Virus record (IMG/VR): IMGVR_UViG_3300042939_000321
Span: 1-34,921 of that record
Strand: one strand, 5' to 3'
DNA: 34,921 bases
Source of the DNA: a virus
Under the pieces are notes generated by a model. That model had not been told where the DNA came from and did not search any database. It saw only the letters and a list, made by a program, of their open reading frames with translations. Within the stretch, counting starts at the first letter, position 1; the number at the start of each line of letters is the position of its first letter. Below are positions 552 to 16,493 of this stretch, piece after piece. The translations under genes and the position numbers were made by a program.

Positions 552-689
552 ATGGCTCGCAGAAAAGCATTCAAAGTTCCCAACCTGCTAAAGCCCCCCA
601 AACGTCGTAAGAAAGGGCCTCTGCAGAAGCTAGCCAAGTGGCACGACGAGATACAGAAAAAACCATTCGGCCCGATGGGGTGGTGGTGA
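552..689 (+). CDS. Small very basic hypothetical protein (45 aa)
   Basis: I do not recognise this protein. It starts with ATG and encodes 45 residues beginning MARRKAFKVPNLLKPPKRRK, rich in Lys, Arg and Pro, and ends in Trp-Trp. Its TGA stop (687-689) lies two bases before the ATG of the topoisomerase gene, the arrangement expected for translational coupling. The basic composition would suit nucleic-acid or acidic-protein binding, but this is only composition. No clear Shine-Dalgarno sequence is visible. The alternative is that it is a non-coding leader and that topoisomerase translation starts at a GTG at 638 in another frame. Confidence 0.45.
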   Translation: MARRKAFKVPNLLKPPKRRKKGPLQKLAKWHDEIQKKPFGPMGWW

Positions 690-691
690 AT

Positions 692-2635
692 ATGTCCGAG
701 ATTTCTACAAGTCTCTCTCGCCAAGTTCAAGAAGACTACCTTGCCTATAGCATGGCCGTGCTCGTTGGCCGCGCCATCCCATCTCTAACCGATGGCATGA
801 AGCCAGTTCAACGTCGGATTCTTGCGGCAATGCGTAACTTGGGTCTCAAGCCCGATGGCCGCTACATGAAGAGTGCCCGAGTCGAAGGCGAAGTCATGGG
901 GAAATACCACCCCCATGGGAGCAGCTACGGAGCCATGGTGACACTCGCCGCACCTTGGAACAACAACCTGCCACTTATCGACGGCCACGGCAACTGGGGG
1001 TCGTCGGTTGACCCAGCCGCAAGCAGCCGCTACACGGAATGCAAACTCAGCCCGTTCTCCTGGGACTGCCTCCTCGATGATAACGAAACCTGGCAAACTA
1101 CGGCAAACTACGACGGTACGTTGCAGGAACCGGTTGAACTCAATGTGAAGATTCCGACGGTACTTCTCAACGGGCAAGACGGTATTGGAGTCGGATTTGC
1201 GACAAAGATTCCCCCGCACAACCTTCGTGACATTTGCGATGCTGTGGTCAATGGAGCACCCTTAACACCTTCCTTCCCTACCCAATGCGATATTGTAGAC
1301 GACGAAGGTCTAAAAGAGTATCAGCAAACAGGTTCGGGAACAATTCGATGCCGCGCAAAGGTTGAGCTTGGTAAGCAACCTCGCTCACGAGGGAAAGACC
1401 GACCCACACTCACATTCACAAATCTGCCGCCAGGTTCCAACCCGGAGAAACTCGGGGAGCAAATTAAATCAGAACTTGAAAAAGGTCGCCTGGACAGCAT
1501 CGCAGAGGTCATCGATGAATCTGATCGATCAGGCGACCGTGTCACAGTGGTTGCGAAACCCGGTGCTGACGTTACCCTTGTTCAACGACAACTCTACGCA
1601 TACACCGATCTTGATACTAAGTATTCGGCAAAGACGCTGGTTATTGAGAATCTCAAGCCCGTCGAGCTCAGTCCGAATCAACTTATTGCGCGATGGAAGA
1701 CATGGCGACTGGATGTGCTGGAGCGAAAATTCACTCACGAGCGAGACCTAAAAGAAACAAGGCTCGAGGTCGTTACCGGCTTGCTCAAGGCCATTGACAA
1801 AATTGACCTTGTTATTAAGACAATTCGCGCAGCCTCCTCCCCAAAGGAAGCGTTGATTGAGTTAGTCAGCAACCGCTCCCTGAAGTTCACGAGCGAGCAA
1901 GCGAGAGCTATCCTTGAGATGAAACTGCGGTCTCTCACCAACCTTGACTCCGAAGAGTTGCTTGCTGAGTGCACCGATCTAGAAGCACGGTTAGAAACAC
2001 TCAAGGATCTTATCGCCAACGAAAAGACTCGCAAAGCATACATGGTGAAGGAAATTAAGGCAATCGGAGTACGTTACGGCGAGACTCGCCGCTCGGAAAT
2101 TATTAACCCTCCCGAAACCTTGCGTGTTGAGAAGGGAGCTGCCCGCCCTGTCGCAACCGCCAAGCCTAAGTTCTTGCAGATTGACACTAAGAAGGGAATT
2201 ATCTCCCACGCAAAAGGACCTCGCGGTGCCCTGCTCATGGAAAAAACTGACAAACTTATTGCCATCTTAGAAAACGGTACTCTCAAGAAACTACCTGCAA
2301 ACTTCAAGGGAGCTATCGGTGCAGAATATTCCACCGTACTTCTAGCAAAGAAAGAAACAGACGTTGCTACTCGCAAATACCTTCTGGTGTTTGTCTTTGG
2401 CGACTGGCTCAAGGCCGTTTCAATCGAAGGGGCCGACCTCTGCAAAGTTACAAGCAAAGGCAAAAATATAATGCCGGTTGGCGCCAAGCTCATATACTTC
2501 GGAGAAGGAACCTACGCTGTGCCTTGGGTGTCATCTCGCAAGAAAAAAGTCGAGCTTTCCCCGCAAACAACAAAAACGGCTAAACCTGGAGCGAAAGGTA
2601 TCCAACTTGCCCACGTAGAAGAGGTGACTCTGTGA
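692..2635 (+). CDS. Type II DNA topoisomerase, A-type (breakage-rejoining) subunit
   Basis: Homologous to GyrA/ParC and to the T4 gp52 medium subunit. This subunit cuts and rejoins the transported-through duplex, relieving torsional stress at phage forks. Visible motifs are GMKPVQRRIL near residue 35, KYHPHG near 71, and SSRYTE with the predicted catalytic Tyr at about residue 114. A G-IGVGFATKIPPHN block and a long coiled-coil arm segment in the middle follow. At 647 residues it is longer than T4 gp52 (about 440) but shorter than bacterial GyrA. After the arm, ~150 residues (from PKFLQIDTKKGIISHAKG) look like a reduced beta-pinwheel tail without a GyrA box. I chose ATG 692, matching the family N-terminus; an in-frame GTG at 638 would add 18 residues. 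The ATPase subunit is not in the window and must lie elsewhere or come from the host. Confidence 0.93.
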   Translation: MSEISTSLSRQVQEDYLAYSMAVLVGRAIPSLTDGMKPVQRRILAAMRNLGLKPDGRYMKSARVEGEVMGKYHPHGSSYGAMVTLAAPWNNNLPLIDGHGNWGSSVDPAASSRYTECKLSPFSWDCLLDDNETWQTTANYDGTLQEPVELNVKIPTVLLNGQDGIGVGFATKIPPHNLRDICDAVVNGAPLTPSFPTQCDIVDDEGLKEYQQTGSGTIRCRAKVELGKQPRSRGKDRPTLTFTNLPPGSNPEKLGEQIKSELEKGRLDSIAEVIDESDRSGDRVTVVAKPGADVTLVQRQLYAYTDLDTKYSAKTLVIENLKPVELSPNQLIARWKTWRLDVLERKFTHERDLKETRLEVVTGLLKAIDKIDLVIKTIRAASSPKEALIELVSNRSLKFTSEQARAILEMKLRSLTNLDSEELLAECTDLEARLETLKDLIANEKTRKAYMVKEIKAIGVRYGETRRSEIINPPETLRVEKGAARPVATAKPKFLQIDTKKGIISHAKGPRGALLMEKTDKLIAILENGTLKKLPANFKGAIGAEYSTVLLAKKETDVATRKYLLVFVFGDWLKAVSIEGADLCKVTSKGKNIMPVGAKLIYFGEGTYAVPWVSSRKKKVELSPQTTKTAKPGAKGIQLAHVEEVTL

Positions 2636-4372: not shown

Positions 4373-5380
4373 ATGATCCCACGCACAGTCCAGATGGCTG
4401 CGGAAGTCGCAGCTCAGTTCACAACAACTCAACTCAAAGACTACGGCAATATCATTATCAACGGTTACGCAACCACGGGCCCAAACACAACCGGCAAACT
4501 CGCTTGGCAGTACAAAGAGACGGCCACTGCTCCCCTCCCTCTCCCCTCAGCAACTTCAGTTCAACCGTTACTCCGAGGCTGGACGAATAACTATCAGGAG
4601 TACTACACTCAGCTTCAACCAAACGGTTACGATGTGAATCCTGGCGACCCAACAATGTTCGCCTATTCCGTACACTCTTTCACCCAAGAGACCGGAAGCA
4701 TTGCAACCACCGGATGGATATCTCCCGGTTCGGGGTACACTCCTGGAACATACCCAGCAGAACCCTTAAGTGGAGGAACTGGTTCGGGAGCTACCGCAAA
4801 TATTGTGGTATCTGTCCCAGTAGGCGCTGACTCAGGCCCGGCGACGGCCGTATCATTTGTTTCAGCTGGCTCAGGGTACCCTGCCAATAACTCAAGTTTC
4901 GCAGGCAGAGCGACAGTAACCTTAACCGGAACCGGAACCGGACTAAAAGTTCAAGGTCAAAGCAACAATAGCGTCCTTGTTCAAGTAACGGCCGTATCAA
5001 CCGGCGGTAGTGGTTACAAGGTCGGTGACACATTTAGTGTTACCCCTGGGACGGGTGTCGGCAAAGTTGATGCCATCACCCTTGGGGGAGTAGTTACCAA
5101 TTTCACTTTAGTAAACCCGGGAACTGGGTACACCCCTGGTGAAGCTCTAGAGGCTCCTGGACTGCCAGGTGGTAGCGGTTTCTACGTTCCAATTCAGACT
5201 GTAACCCCCGATGCAGGAACCGGAGCAGAACCTCGCTGGGCGCAAGCGCCTCGTCGCTTCTTCCAGAATCAAGTTGCGGATTTCGTTCCTCCCACGGCCA
5301 ATCAGCAAGCGATTCAGTACTCATTCATCTACCCTGTGGCCGACAACCTGGCACCTCCTCCGATCGGCCCCTTGACCTGA
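4373..5380 (+). CDS. Virion protein with Gly-rich beta repeats (335 aa)
   Basis: Probably a structural or fibre/baseplate-associated protein. After an N-terminal part of ~110 residues it has two or more copies of a beta-rich repeat. Their hallmarks are GSGY and GTGY turns (SPGSGYTPGTYP near residue 117, SAGSGYP near 163, TGGSGYKVGD near 210, NPGTGYTPGE near 247) separated by GATANIVV- or GKVDAITL-type strands. The same module is found inside the sheath protein (about 13790-13990) and the 1077-residue baseplate protein (about 30985-31180). The last 60 residues are Pro-rich. The ATG lies 30 bases after a GGGTAAAA element. The precise virion location is unknown. Confidence 0.75.
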   Translation: MIPRTVQMAAEVAAQFTTTQLKDYGNIIINGYATTGPNTTGKLAWQYKETATAPLPLPSATSVQPLLRGWTNNYQEYYTQLQPNGYDVNPGDPTMFAYSVHSFTQETGSIATTGWISPGSGYTPGTYPAEPLSGGTGSGATANIVVSVPVGADSGPATAVSFVSAGSGYPANNSSFAGRATVTLTGTGTGLKVQGQSNNSVLVQVTAVSTGGSGYKVGDTFSVTPGTGVGKVDAITLGGVVTNFTLVNPGTGYTPGEALEAPGLPGGSGFYVPIQTVTPDAGTGAEPRWAQAPRRFFQNQVADFVPPTANQQAIQYSFIYPVADNLAPPPIGPLT

Positions 5381-5381
5381 G

Positions 5382-5409
5382 TTTACTCTAGGCAAACCAC
5401 CCCTATACT
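5382..5409 (+). promoter_or_regulatory. Putative sigma70-like promoter
   Basis: TTTACT at 5382-5387, a 16-base spacer, and TATACT at 5404-5409, 21 bases ahead of the ATG at 5430. A mobile-type ORF carrying its own promoter is usual for intron-less homing nucleases. Confidence 0.5.
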
Positions 5410-5429
5410 TGGTTATACAAACCCTTAAA

Positions 5430-5963
5430 ATGAACCAAGAAAACTGGGTAACAACTTGCTTATCTGGATACAGAGTTAACCCCCCTAGGGGCTACCACTT
5501 TGAAAACGCGCATTACCCTTTATCTAAAAAATTGGGTGGCACAAAAACCATACGCCTGTGGTACCCTGATCATATTGTCCAAGGGTGTTTACAAACTCTA
5601 GAGAATAATTACCCTTGTGTAGATACCCGGAAAGCAGACCGAGAACGGAGCATATTAAGAGACGTATATCCGGAGTATCTTGATCTTTACGACCAAGCAA
5701 CTTTAATATGTAGACGTCACGCAAACAACAAACAAGCCCTGTCAGGACATAGGGAAAAAGCCCGGACAAGTGCCACACAAAAAAGAAAGAGGCCAGTTTT
5801 TATAACGTGCCCAAAGGGAGAAATATATTTATTTGAAAGCTGCACAGAAGCTGGCCGAAAGTTCAACTTGCATTTGGGAGAGTTAAGCAAGTGTTGCCAC
5901 GGAAAGATTAAGCATGTCAAGGGGTACTCCGCTTATTTTGCGGATTTACCTGACGCATTCTAA
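5430..5963 (+). CDS. Homing-endonuclease-type ORF with NUMOD1-like DNA-binding C-terminus (177 aa)
   Basis: The last ~45 residues (KGEIYLFESCTEAGRKFNLH, then LSKCCHGKIKHVKGYSAYF) match the pattern of NUMOD1. NUMOD1 is a helix-turn-helix-like module found at the C-termini of HNH and GIY-YIG homing endonucleases, where it helps recognise the target site. The N-terminal ~110 residues have Cys, His and Arg-rich stretches (ICRRHANNK) but no catalytic motif I can name, so nuclease activity is unproven. ATG 5430 is preferred over an upstream in-frame TTG at 5409, which lies at the -10 box. The gene stands directly ahead of the DNA polymerase gene, a classic neighbourhood for homing nucleases. It may be an active nuclease, a decayed one, or a DNA-binding protein. 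Confidence 0.6.
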   Translation: MNQENWVTTCLSGYRVNPPRGYHFENAHYPLSKKLGGTKTIRLWYPDHIVQGCLQTLENNYPCVDTRKADRERSILRDVYPEYLDLYDQATLICRRHANNKQALSGHREKARTSATQKRKRPVFITCPKGEIYLFESCTEAGRKFNLHLGELSKCCHGKIKHVKGYSAYFADLPDAF

Positions 5964-6000: not shown

Positions 6001-8766
6001 ATGACTGCACGATTTACAGAGCTTGGATACCCCGTCCTCGATGGCAATATGCATTCGAGGATTTTTGGTATTCAGAAACCCAAGGCAATGAGTCGCCTGG
6101 CGAAGCAGAGAGCAGAGAGTCTCCTTGGGGAATTTGACATCCCGATCCCAGTCGATTACCCCGAGCATCTATACGACGGTCCGCTACCTCTACCTAACCT
6201 GCAAGGTAACACTCTAACGGAACACTTTGAGAATATTGCCGAGAAGCAAGTCGGCGAATACAAGAAACTCGCTGACGAGTTTGCAAAGTGCAAGTTGCCT
6301 CTTTTGCCCCCGCCCGAGGTTTTCAAGTTTGAACCCGGATGGACACGATACGAATGGGTGGAGAATGAGGCCGCCGGTGGGTGGTACACTGAGTCTGTCA
6401 AGTGTCCCGAGGAAGACGTCTTTACTTTTGACTGTGAGACTTTTGTGCACGGCGGTGCTTTTCCGATTATTGGAACCGCTCTCAGTGCGAAAGCTGTCTA
6501 CATCTGGCTCGCCTCTGAACTAATCGACCCCTCGATTCCGGAGGAATCGTGGGACCAGCACAACCTGATCCCAATCGGTGAGAATCGCTTCGTTATCGGT
6601 CATAATATCAGCTACGACCGCGTACGTGCCCGCGAGGGGTACTCACTTAACCGAACCAAACCTGAGAACTTCTACTTTGATACACTATCTGCACACATTG
6701 GCGTTTCTGGTCTTGCCGGTGGTCAGCGCTGGCTATATGTTCTGGCTGGTAAGGACCCTGAGAACCTTACTGAGGAAGAGAAGCGAAAGCTAAGATATGC
6801 GCCGAAATGGCTGGACGAAGGATCCACCAACTCGTTGGTCGCTGTGTATAACTTCCACGTATACGAGGTGAGAAAATATTTCGGCGACGACGCCTTCCAA
6901 CTCGGAAAGGAAGACAAGGCAGTACGTGATATTTTCGTCAAAGCAACTCACCTGAGTCAGATTCGGCAGATGCTGACCGAGGCAGTTGACTACGCCGTCA
7001 AAGACGCCTTCTACACTGCCGAACTTTTCCAAGCACTCTGGCCCAAGTACCTCGTCTCCACCCCGTCTCTCACTGCTCTTTGTGGGCACTACCACTTGAA
7101 TGGTTCTATCATTCCCCTCGTCCCCGACTGGGAGGACTGGATCAAAGGGGTGGAAAAGGTCTTCGAGGACCACAATAACGAGATGACCCAGATCTGTAAG
7201 GACTTGGTGTGGAAAGTCTATGAGGAGTGGGTGGAGTCCGGTCGCGAGGACTCCTTCTGGCGCCGGGACCCGTGGTTGACGCAACTCAACTGGGAAGTTA
7301 AGACCCAGAAGGGCAAGTACGCAGGGGTTCCCGAGTGGGTTCGCCCGTTCGTCAAGGATCCTGACACGCACATTGGAGTCAAGAGCAACCTTTCTCACCT
7401 TCTACTGAAACTGACTTGGGAAGGCTCCCCCATGGTGAATACCCAAGATATGGGTTGGTGCTTCCACAATGAAGACGGAGTGCTTACGAAAATCCCCCAC
7501 CCTAAGGGCGCAGGAGCGAATGTTGGAGGGGTACTATCGAAGGACTTCGTTGACGACATGAAAGTTGGTCGGTTGAACTCCGATCTCCCTGAAGCTAAGC
7601 GGGCACTCGAGATTGCAAACGCGACATCATACTGGACTTCGGTCCGGAAACGAGTCATGGACCGGATCTACCTCCCGGTTTCAAACCCTCACGGTGCGGA
7701 CTCTCTGGTCACTCTCCCTGAAATTCTCTGCCACGGTACCGTCACTCGACGAACTGTGGAGTCGCTCATGGTGACCATGTGCTCCACGAAAAACTGGCGG
7801 ATTGGCACCGAACTCAAGTCCCGTGTGCAAGCACCGGACGGCTGGAAAATCGTTGGTGCTGACTTTGATGGTCAAGAGATGCAAATTGCCTCAATCTACA
7901 GTGACAAGTGGGAAGGCGGTCACGTTGGTTGCTCGCCTTTCGGTTACAACGTGCTGTCGGGATCGAAAGAGGCAGGCACGGATCCGCACTCCGCACTTGC
8001 AAAACTCTGCGGCATTGACCGAGACACGGCCAAGATCGTCGGGTTTGCCGTACTTTACGGTGCGGGGGCTCGTGGCGTCCAGACATACATCCGTCGTAAA
8101 TACCCAGAGAAATCCCCCGAAGAAGTAAAAAACATTGCGTTCAAACTCTTACAAAGCAAGAAAGGAGCGCAACGAGATGGTCTATATGAAGGCGGCTTAG
8201 ACAGCGGCTGCTTTAACTTTATGGAGGAAATTGCGATGAGAACGCGAATCCCCCAGCTACCGTGCCTCGGCACTAAAATCTCGACTGCGATGCGCCCTGC
8301 GGCTGTTGGCGACGATTTTAAGACGGGGCGGGTCAACTGGACAATCCAGTCATCGGGTGCGGAGATTCTCTCGATCATGCTAACCGCTGTGCACTGGCTC
8401 ATTGATGAGTACAAGATTCCAGCTCGTTTCATCCTTAGTATCCATGACGAAATATGGTTCCAAACCCCGGAAAGGTACGCAGAGCAGTTCGCTGTTCTAT
8501 TTCAAATCGCTCACATGTACACTTGGTCTCTATTCCATTCGGCAGTTGATATCCCCGAGTTGCCTCTTTCGCGTGCGTACTTCTCTTCAGTCGCCATCGA
8601 CGATCGCCTTCGGAAATCGCCAAAAGAAAAAACAGTCACTCTCTCTAACCCTGAAGGTGATGAAGAACCCTCAGGGGTAGAGTACTCTATGACTGAACTT
8701 TCCGAAATCGGAGCCATTGACAAACTAACTAACCGCTACACTGCAATCCAAAAAGGTCTTATCTGA
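6001..8766 (+). CDS. Family A DNA polymerase of the mitochondrial polymerase gamma type (921 aa)
   Basis: Replicative polymerase with 3'-5' proofreading. Exonuclease motifs: FDCET (Exo I, D ~144 and E ~146), VIGHNISYDR (Exo II, D ~206) and YAVKDAFYT (Exo III, D ~335). Polymerase motifs: VGADFDGQE (A, D ~620), RDTAKIVGFAVLYG (B, ~673-686) and SIHDE (C, ~814). Compared with human POLG from memory, similarity runs colinearly through the whole chain. Matching pairs are GWTRYE/GWTRYG in the N-terminal extension, NVGGVLSKDF/NVGSPFAKDF, RALEIANATSYW/RALEINKMISFW, GTVTRRTVES/GTITRRAVEP, GTELKSRVQAP/GSELKAMVQAP, GTDPHS/GTDLHS and RVNWTIQSS/RVNWVVQSS. This is much closer to POLG than to the T7 or Pol I pattern. 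At 921 residues it lacks much of the inserted spacer material of the ~1240-residue human enzyme. Motif B has Phe where POLG has Tyr951, which predicts discrimination against dideoxynucleotides. I chose ATG 6001 because it starts right after the -10 box; an in-frame ATG at 5914 lies inside the preceding gene. The stop overlaps the next start (TGATG). Confidence 0.95.
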   Translation: MTARFTELGYPVLDGNMHSRIFGIQKPKAMSRLAKQRAESLLGEFDIPIPVDYPEHLYDGPLPLPNLQGNTLTEHFENIAEKQVGEYKKLADEFAKCKLPLLPPPEVFKFEPGWTRYEWVENEAAGGWYTESVKCPEEDVFTFDCETFVHGGAFPIIGTALSAKAVYIWLASELIDPSIPEESWDQHNLIPIGENRFVIGHNISYDRVRAREGYSLNRTKPENFYFDTLSAHIGVSGLAGGQRWLYVLAGKDPENLTEEEKRKLRYAPKWLDEGSTNSLVAVYNFHVYEVRKYFGDDAFQLGKEDKAVRDIFVKATHLSQIRQMLTEAVDYAVKDAFYTAELFQALWPKYLVSTPSLTALCGHYHLNGSIIPLVPDWEDWIKGVEKVFEDHNNEMTQICKDLVWKVYEEWVESGREDSFWRRDPWLTQLNWEVKTQKGKYAGVPEWVRPFVKDPDTHIGVKSNLSHLLLKLTWEGSPMVNTQDMGWCFHNEDGVLTKIPHPKGAGANVGGVLSKDFVDDMKVGRLNSDLPEAKRALEIANATSYWTSVRKRVMDRIYLPVSNPHGADSLVTLPEILCHGTVTRRTVESLMVTMCSTKNWRIGTELKSRVQAPDGWKIVGADFDGQEMQIASIYSDKWEGGHVGCSPFGYNVLSGSKEAGTDPHSALAKLCGIDRDTAKIVGFAVLYGAGARGVQTYIRRKYPEKSPEEVKNIAFKLLQSKKGAQRDGLYEGGLDSGCFNFMEEIAMRTRIPQLPCLGTKISTAMRPAAVGDDFKTGRVNWTIQSSGAEILSIMLTAVHWLIDEYKIPARFILSIHDEIWFQTPERYAEQFAVLFQIAHMYTWSLFHSAVDIPELPLSRAYFSSVAIDDRLRKSPKEKTVTLSNPEGDEEPSGVEYSMTELSEIGAIDKLTNRYTAIQKGLI

Positions 8767-15917: not shown

Positions 15918-16493
15918 GTGATTACCTACGCTGCGATAAATCTAACCAACAAGAAGTTCTACGTGGGGAGCGCTCAGGATTTCGTAAGGCGATGCCGAGG
16001 ACACCACGGCACCAAAAACGAGAATCCGCTGTTTCATCGAGCACTACATAAGAACCCTGAAAACTTCTATTGGATTGCGGGTGAAGACGACGGGTTGGAC
16101 ACTCGTGACGAGGAGCAGTATTACCTGGACTTCTATCACGGCACAATGTGGTGTGTGAATCACAATCCGAATGCTTCTGAGCCACCGTCACAAGCTGGAA
16201 CAAAATGGTGGAACAACGGTATCGAACAGGTGAAAGTTTTCGAGTGCCCCGGGGAAGGATGGGTTATGGGGCGCCTGGGCTGCTGGTGGAACAATGGTGC
16301 TGAAAATCGTTTTGGAGTGGAGTCTCCCCCCGGTGAGTGGGTTACTGGAAGAATTCAGATACCTCGAACTGCGGAGAGGCAGGGTATTTCGGGCAAAGGC
16401 AATGTGTGGTGGAATAACGGTATGACTTCAACCCGGGCTAAAACGTGCCCCGGCGAAGGTTGGGTTCGCGGTCGCATCAAAAGGAGTAAGTAA
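15918..16493 (+). CDS. GIY-YIG family endonuclease with three C-terminal WWNNG repeats (191 aa)
   Basis: Free-standing homing-type nuclease. The first ~90 residues have the GIY-YIG layout: ITYAAINLTNKKFYVGSAQD (the GIY-like and YVG strands), then FVRRCRGHHG with the conserved Arg. FYW and DEEQYYLDFYHG contain the expected catalytic Glu, and CVNHNPNASEPP closes the fold. The remaining ~100 residues hold three repeats of W-W-N-N-G followed after 8-12 residues by (C)PGEGWV.GR (near residues 97, 122 and 163). This is presumably a DNA-recognition module. The start is GTG. It lies between the baseplate gp25 gene and the portal gene, breaking an otherwise coupled gene series. The Shine-Dalgarno sequence of the portal gene (AAGGAG) lies inside its last codons. 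Confidence 0.85.
   Translation: MITYAAINLTNKKFYVGSAQDFVRRCRGHHGTKNENPLFHRALHKNPENFYWIAGEDDGLDTRDEEQYYLDFYHGTMWCVNHNPNASEPPSQAGTKWWNNGIEQVKVFECPGEGWVMGRLGCWWNNGAENRFGVESPPGEWVTGRIQIPRTAERQGISGKGNVWWNNGMTSTRAKTCPGEGWVRGRIKRSK
16481..16486 (+). promoter_or_regulatory. Strong Shine-Dalgarno of the portal gene
   Basis: AAGGAG, seven bases ahead of the ATG at 16494, inside the 3' end of the GIY-YIG ORF. It is one of the few strong Shine-Dalgarno sequences in the window and fixes the portal start. Confidence 0.75.

Follow-up and report, generated by a model that had tools for sequence, protein, structure and literature searches.

We analysed the 34,921 bases of the virus record IMGVR_UViG_3300042939_000321, a fragment of a larger genome, referred to here in its entirety as the window, and focused on the open reading frame (ORF) of 921 amino acids at positions 6001..8766 of its plus strand. 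By sequence and by predicted fold this ORF is a complete POLG-type family A DNA polymerase, homologous to the mitochondrial polymerase gamma outside the catalytic motifs as well as within them. Our reading, to which we assign a probability of roughly 0.92, is that it represents the replicative, proofreading polymerase of a tailed phage, a relative of Synechococcus phage S-CBWM1 that probably infects cyanobacteria, with an exonuclease/polymerase spacer that lacks the insertions of the animal enzymes. A preliminary description of this DNA had presented the gene as a full-length match to mitochondrial POLG, and its lineage as possibly either close to the phage donor of the eukaryotic gene or descended from a eukaryotic one.

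Searched as a single sequence against the PDB, the protein matches yeast Mip1 at E = 4e-116 and human POLG at E = 1.6e-106, compared to 8e-4 for the best Pol I, and T7 polymerase is missing from the 51 matches with E-values of at most 1; expressed in bits, POLG reaches 351-392 against at most 20.5 for Pol I. A profile built from five phage POLGs, that of the window first, aligns with yeast Mip1 in a single stretch (profile positions 8-913 to chain positions 15-950, 658 bits) and with 13 animal POLG sequences at 571-588 bits, the best Pol I scoring 51.6. In blastp the window protein scores 418 bits against yeast and 25.8 against T7, and the best of 200 shuffled yeast sequences scores 26.2, so that chance similarity to POLG is excluded. 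Furthermore, residues 92-379 (6187..7050, plus strand) match the 3’-5’ exonuclease domain of the mitochondrial polymerase type, PF18136, at E = 2.1e-63 and 214.6 bits (cut-off 26.7), and the best PHROG is phrog_22619, a phage DNA polymerase family, at 765.9 bits. The exonuclease model was also matched in all 19 other POLG records that we compared (4 named phages and 15 IMG/VR contigs), in none of 14 control cellular genomes, and not in T7, which served as a twentieth record. It should be noted that these 19 records are not independent, some of them being closely related contigs, and that the 15 IMG/VR contigs are possibly incomplete.

The predicted structure points in the same direction. An AlphaFold2 model based on 22 sequences (predicted local distance difference test, pLDDT, 81.8; predicted template modelling score, pTM, 0.82) retrieved only POLG structures at Foldseek ranks 1 to 36, with E-values from 4e-56 to 2e-23, followed by Klenow at 2.7e-12. 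In comparisons by VIA, the best POLG chain superposes with Z 37.0 over 829 residues at 3.3 Å (model span 33-940) and yeast POLG with Z 27.4 over 849 residues, the best non-POLG polymerase being Pol I of phage G20c with Z 16.7. As such, both the sequence and the predicted fold of POLG extend over approximately residues 30-946, and the likeness to Pol I or T7 polymerase is only weak.

Both active sites are intact. Counting residues from an alternative upstream ATG at 5914, the alignment places the Exo I motif FDCET (D173, E175) at 6427..6441, the Exo II motif GHNISYDR (D235) at 6598..6621 and the Exo III motif YAVKDAFYT (Y360, D364) at 6991..7017, followed by the Pol A motif GADFDGQEM (D650, E655) at 7855..7881, the O-helix or Pol B motif RDTAKIVGFAVLYGAG (F711, Y715) at 8020..8067 and the Pol C motif IHDEIWF (D845) at 8440..8460, all on the plus strand. 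The catalytic residues compared (D/E of Exo I, D of Exo II, Y/D of Exo III, D and E of Pol A, R/K/Y of the O-helix and D of Pol C) are invariant in 35 out of 35 aligned POLG rows. Between the two domains lies a compact spacer, at approximately residues 454-528 in the alignment (7273..7497, plus strand), which measures 72 amino acids between two landmarks, versus 119 in yeast. In animal POLG, the spacer is some 195 amino acids longer than in the window, at two places (~75 and ~120 residues in human POLG), a figure taken from the PDB-search alignment, as the animal row in our own alignment lacks some stretches and its landmark length is an undercount. The enlarged animal spacer binds the accessory subunit; we infer that the phage polymerase would act as a single chain.

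A second difference concerns the O-helix, where F711 occupies what we take to be the position of human POLG Tyr951, and Y715 that of Tyr955. Phenylalanine is found at the former position in 29 of the 35 rows, including that of the window, and tyrosine in yeast, human, Mic1, S-TIM5 and the loci L115 and L185. From work on Klenow and T7 polymerase, the choice between phenylalanine and tyrosine at this type of position governs discrimination against dideoxynucleotides. Since the window carries phenylalanine where mitochondrial POLG and T7 carry tyrosine, its polymerase would be expected to discriminate against them. The Mic1 paper already notes this tyrosine/phenylalanine difference, for fewer phages (PMC7156551).

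What does this polymerase do for its phage? In none of the 19 POLG records does the family A model match anything but POLG (which in one record comes as two pieces of one ORF), and models for family B and Pol III alpha polymerases found nothing in any of them, while 5 and 10, respectively, of the 14 control genomes were positive. Of 50,697 phage records, 16 match the window polymerase; in 11 the match covers 80% or more of the query, and these 11 all belong to cyanophages. Phages with POLG also encode a protein annotated as ‘DNA primase’ (phrog_25243), which was matched in 17 of the 19 POLG records, and in neither T7 nor the 14 control genomes. By tblastn, the ‘primase’ of S-CBWM1 and that of A-HIS1 each retrieved the same nine records (seven phages) out of the 50,697, which are the 11 POLG records minus two gene-only entries shorter than 3 kb; outside these nine no such gene was found in the collection, at an E-value threshold of 1e-5 that can miss distant helicases. 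Among the carriers are S-TIM5, A-HIS1 and Mic1, as seen in their genome records, and in IMG/VR, POLG is shown in 8 of 17 long contigs with the gene. Conversely, neither a T7-type RNA polymerase (PF00940) nor a DnaB/Twinkle-type helicase (PF03796) was matched in any of the 19 POLG records, T7 being positive for both. For Mic1, POLG and the ‘primase’ are expressed in the same cluster of middle-phase genes, and the authors regard both as necessary for replicating the DNA (PMC11237433). The pairing of POLG with this gene is a matter of correlation between genomes. We found no description of it among the papers listed in our searches; the original A-HIS, S-TIM5 and S-CBWM1 papers may discuss the helicase or primase. 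The Mic1 paper names polymerase, FEN, helicase and primase as common to Mic1, A-HIS1/2 and S-CBWM1 (PMC7156551).

So what kind of protein is this ‘DNA primase’? On sequence motifs and a predicted model, it looks like a superfamily 3 (SF3) helicase of the D5 type. A Walker A motif, a Walker B motif with DD and an SF3-like motif C with its asparagine are found in all eight proteins aligned, and all eight match PF19263 at E-values up to 1, the best being 3.2e-11; A-HIS1 scores above the cut-off of 27.6 bits with 41.8, and S-CBWM1 just below it with 25.2. A sequence profile of the family found nothing convincing in the PDB (best E 0.044). The model (pLDDT 76.8, pTM 0.60) fits best to D5, SaPI Pri-Rep, African swine fever virus (ASFV) PrimPol and NrS-1-type SF3 helicases, with Foldseek E-values from 1.5e-6, and Z rises to 13.4 over 302 residues at 5.8 Å, for residues 48-462 only and at a level that unrelated helical proteins approximately reach. 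The alignment with full-length ASFV PrimPol (8iqi_A) starts by pairing residue 413 of the latter with residue 49 of the ‘primase’, and the phage protein therefore seems to be the helicase part without an N-terminal primase, keeping in mind that an unlisted primase domain is no proof of its absence. Loci of this gene are, for example, L216:30671-32656, L052:7828-9642 and L220:1498-3357, besides those in other POLG records. Within the large POLG contigs L232/L238, L234/L236 and L235/L237 the gene is in pieces, with the break around profile positions 275-342. In the replisome that we envisage, POLG would copy the phage genome together with this SF3-like, D5-type hexameric helicase, whose gene, encoded by the relatives, would sit outside the 34.9-kb fragment of the window.

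Two other readings of the gene itself have to be weighed. That it is a T7-type or bacterial Pol I polymerase, with a likeness to POLG confined to the common catalytic motifs, is scarcely credible: the general family A model PF00476 does match weakly at the polymerase motifs (48.7 bits) and Pol I folds superpose on the model at Z ~16, but the POLG matches span the whole chain, with the scores given above, and the NCBIfam Pol I models reach only 26.9-27.1 bits against cut-offs of 600-720. Moreover, in our main tree (25 rows, 540 columns, LG+C20, six family A outgroups, and yeast and human as the only eukaryotes) phage and eukaryotic POLGs form one group at 100/100, apart from T7 and Pol I, and T7, CRP-143, CRP-171 and a Mesorhizobium phage form a separate clade, also at 100/100, without the window. 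PDB search, profile, NCBIfam models, tree and fold comparison refute this identity. With this, the profile, structure and tree checks named in the preliminary description come out in favour of POLG, as do its intact exonuclease and polymerase motifs and the eight motif pairs that it listed for the window and human POLG, all of which are present in alignments with the human protein. Its full-length match stands insofar as the protein is collinear to yeast Mip1 along the chain, and has to be qualified for the compact spacer, in which the animal insertions are absent. The second reading, in which the polymerase serves repair or an auxiliary task and host Pol III copies the phage genome, we consider improbable. 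The host does have Pol III; yet in the 19 records the models for family A, family B and Pol III alpha polymerases match nothing but POLG, 17 of these records also match the SF3-like helicase, and the Mic1 polymerase shares the middle-phase cluster with the ‘primase’ (PMC11237433).

Against the view that the window encodes a replicative POLG working with an SF3-like helicase in a cyanophage, the following points have to be set. The profile phrog_25243 is silent in two of the 19 POLG records, both of them contigs from IMG/VR (114 and 87 kb); POLG is not shown in nine of the 17 long IMG/VR contigs that carry the helicase gene (70-134 kb); and no SF3-like helicase gene was found in the 34.9-kb window itself. 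The nine contigs may simply be cut, considering that the group includes contigs of up to 279 kb and that the two genes lie ~50 kb apart in S-CBWM1. The host is probably a cyanobacterium, since the POLG isolates infect cyanobacteria and a photosystem reaction-centre gene is found in nine of the 19 POLG records, but such a gene is not shown in the other ten, and for the window phage the assignment is drawn from its relatives. Lastly, the precise start codon is uncertain, as the ATG at 5914 would give a protein of 950 amino acids. Position 6001 is the likelier start, because residues 1-30 are predicted to be disordered in the AlphaFold2 model and the S-CBWM1, S-TIM5 and A-HIS1/2 proteins start a few residues before the block that matches window residue 37.

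Where, then, does the window stand relative to mitochondrial POLG? In the main tree, yeast and human group with the Microcystis phage Mic1 at 100/99, and A-HIS joins them next (94/96). The S-TIM5-like and S-CBWM1-like phages, with the window among the latter, fall outside this group. Analysed in separate halves, the alignment retains the grouping of Mic1 with the eukaryotes, at 100/99 for the N-terminal and 95/96 for the C-terminal half; with fewer outgroups, support is 94/99 when the long Leptolyngbya phage row is left out, and 86/66 with T7-like rows only. In this last tree the root lies between Mic1 plus eukaryotes and all remaining phages. Similarity measures agree, in that the N-terminal ORF of Mic1 is 38% identical to yeast versus 33% for the window, and in a tblastn search with yeast POLG, Mic1 reaches 588 bits versus 356-431 for the other ten POLG records. 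By these sequence comparisons, the phage nearest to mitochondrial POLG is the siphophage Mic1, and not the S-CBWM1- or S-TIM5-like myoviruses, which make up the majority of the phage POLGs found.

Alternative placements were compared by approximately unbiased (AU) tests, whose hypotheses were chosen after the first tree had been seen. The proposition from the preliminary description that the window lineage is the phage lineage closest to the donor of eukaryotic POLG has in its favour that the window belongs to the same POLG group as the eukaryotes and is 32-33% identical to yeast. Forcing the eukaryotes together with the window clade is nevertheless rejected, at a cost of 58 log-likelihood units (p = 1.4e-6, LG+C20, two eukaryotes), and taken together with the position of Mic1 (obtained from the full alignment and from each half alike), its higher identity to yeast and its top tblastn score, this leaves the proposition very improbable. 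Placing the eukaryotes with the S-TIM5-like phages (p = 5e-5) or with A-HIS (p = 0.002) is rejected as well. A clade uniting all phage POLGs, on the other hand, is not rejected (p = 0.135, and 0.264 and 0.207 with fewer outgroups), which bears on the other proposition, that a cyanophage captured a mitochondrial gene from a eukaryote and that the phage POLGs derive from it. According to a 2025 paper, POLG is confined to opisthokonts (PMC12230644, which cites Harada 2024 for this), and with such a distribution a single transfer in either direction is conceivable. Weighing against capture, the eukaryotes lie beside Mic1 and inside the phages in all three best rooted trees (though with support from 100/99 down to 86/66), phage POLG is diverse (at least 33 clusters at 80% identity), and it travels with a phage helicase (for which eukaryotic genomes were not searched). 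We therefore regard capture from a eukaryote as rather unlikely, with the tree topology speaking against it and the AU test leaving it room.

The same 2025 paper derives the whole animal mitochondrial replisome from T-odd phages (PMC12230644). A single T7-like donor is hard to reconcile with a phage POLG that is paired with an SF3-like helicase, and with POLG records in which T7-like partners were not found. We tentatively propose, as one possibility and not the favoured one, that the mitochondrial replisome is a mosaic, whose polymerase would descend from, or have a common origin with, a cyanophage-type replisome that combines POLG and an SF3 helicase of the D5 type, while Twinkle, itself T7-like, and the RNA polymerase of T7 type would have been added from elsewhere. 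If true, the account of animal mitochondrial DNA replication in terms of one T7-like phage donor would be wrong for the polymerase. In either case, the wider sampling sharpens two questions, namely which phages adjoin mitochondrial POLG, and which partners the ancestral POLG had, given that an SF3-like helicase is present in nine out of nine genome-length POLG phage records.

The window itself is, judged by its genes, a fragment from a relative of the cyanomyovirus S-CBWM1 (Aokuangvirus). Identity to S-CBWM1 is 56.8% for the polymerase, across 96% of its length, and 67% for the major head protein; the portal of the window phage matches the Mu portal family. A DNA topoisomerase II subunit of the gyrase/topo IV A type is encoded at 638..2635 of the plus strand, 46% identical in blastp to its S-CBWM1 counterpart, which lies upstream of the polymerase as well. 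The order of topoisomerase, two short genes (27 and 30% identical), polymerase and one short gene (38%) is the same in S-CBWM1, the window having three further ORFs between its topoisomerase and its polymerase. Megablast with the first 20 kb of the window found zero matches among the 50,697 phage records, and the phage would thus be a new relative of S-CBWM1 from outside that collection. Two ORFs without an equivalent at the S-CBWM1 locus lie between the topoisomerase and polymerase genes: one at 4373-5380, rich in glycine repeats and weakly like virion structural or tail fibre proteins, and one at 5409-5963, just upstream of the polymerase and overlapping the start at 5914, which has an I-HmuI-like NUMOD (homing-endonuclease) domain. 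No Rfam family was matched in the window.

In several relatives, the polymerase gene is interrupted. At L170:9959-13643, POLG is divided over two ORFs at the exonuclease/polymerase junction by an inserted ORF with an HNH-like start and, by eye, repeated WWNNG-type modules, with short palindromic copies on both flanks; POLG at L176:9992-13761 is split at the same junction. Repeats of the WWNNG type that resemble, by eye, those of the ORF interrupting POLG in L170 also occur in a GIY-YIG endonuclease ORF at 15918-16493 of the window. In Mic1 and its near-copies (L120:2731-6027 and L051:8986-11971), the split is located at the Pol A motif, and the gap between the two ORFs is larger in L120 than in Mic1. 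Around the split polymerases no intron family was found at gathering score, only two tRNAs. The C-terminal ORF of Mic1 (L051:11237-11971) has an unusual O-helix, which ends in YSRRYSAG where the window has FAVLYGAG. L195 and L176 have 48 extra residues between Exo III and the WLxQLxW landmark (138 versus 90 in the window).

The window gene is one more, rather typical member of a phage POLG family that has been known since 2011. Polymerase gamma genes were reported in the cyanophages A-HIS1/A-HIS2 (2011), S-TIM5 (2012), S-CBWM1 (2018) and Mic1 (2020), and a common ancestor with the mitochondrial polymerase was proposed for them, as related in the Mic1 article (PMC7156551); a 2016 article makes the same statement on POLG for S-TIM5 and an Acaryochloris phage (PMC4928673). 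The novelty claimed in the preliminary description was hence anticipated in print. Including IMG/VR, we counted at least 184 near-full POLG rows (the window, repeats and named phages counted in), in at least 110 groups at 99.5% identity and at least 33 clusters at 80%. These are lower bounds, as one scan kept 80 of 132 relatives and another the best 80 of 102 (79 loci). Single contigs are represented among the rows by loci with several ids. A scan with A-HIS2 only found no relative, and the Mic1-like scans yielded three loci each, all of the Mic1 type and 96-98% identical to Mic1, so that the branch beside the eukaryotes remains thin. A home in cellular bacteria was considered and rejected: a non-exhaustive search of 84,980 genomes with two peptide patterns gave 268 pattern matches and a single relative, a POLG end fragment of 339 amino acids, 55% identical to the window, at L118:8600-9598. 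Its 9.6-kb contig is binned with a Microbacteriaceae metagenome-assembled genome and is probably stray phage DNA.

Among known systems, S-CBWM1 is closest to the window, with a polymerase, annotated as DNA polymerase gamma, that has the same motifs, the same phenylalanine at the Tyr951 position and the same local gene order. The POLGs of S-TIM5, A-HIS1/A-HIS2 and Mic1 are full-length, of the same type and 30-38% identical to that of the window; S-TIM5 and Mic1 differ by tyrosine at the Tyr951 position, and Mic1 furthermore by having POLG in two ORFs and by standing nearest to the eukaryotes. Mitochondrial POLG, as represented by yeast Mip1 and the animal enzymes, shares with the window an end-to-end homology, the exonuclease type, the core of the spacer and the fold, at identities of 32-33% for yeast and of 28.5 and 37% in two segments for animal POLG; it is set apart by the phage setting, compact spacer and phenylalanine of the window, although Mip1 likewise lacks the full animal spacer insertions, and by a Twinkle helicase where the phage relatives have an SF3-like one. 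T7 and T7-type polymerases are family A, proofreading and phage-encoded like that of the window, but lie outside the POLG group, and T7 brings its own RNA polymerase and a DnaB-type helicase, neither of which is shown in any of the 19 POLG records.

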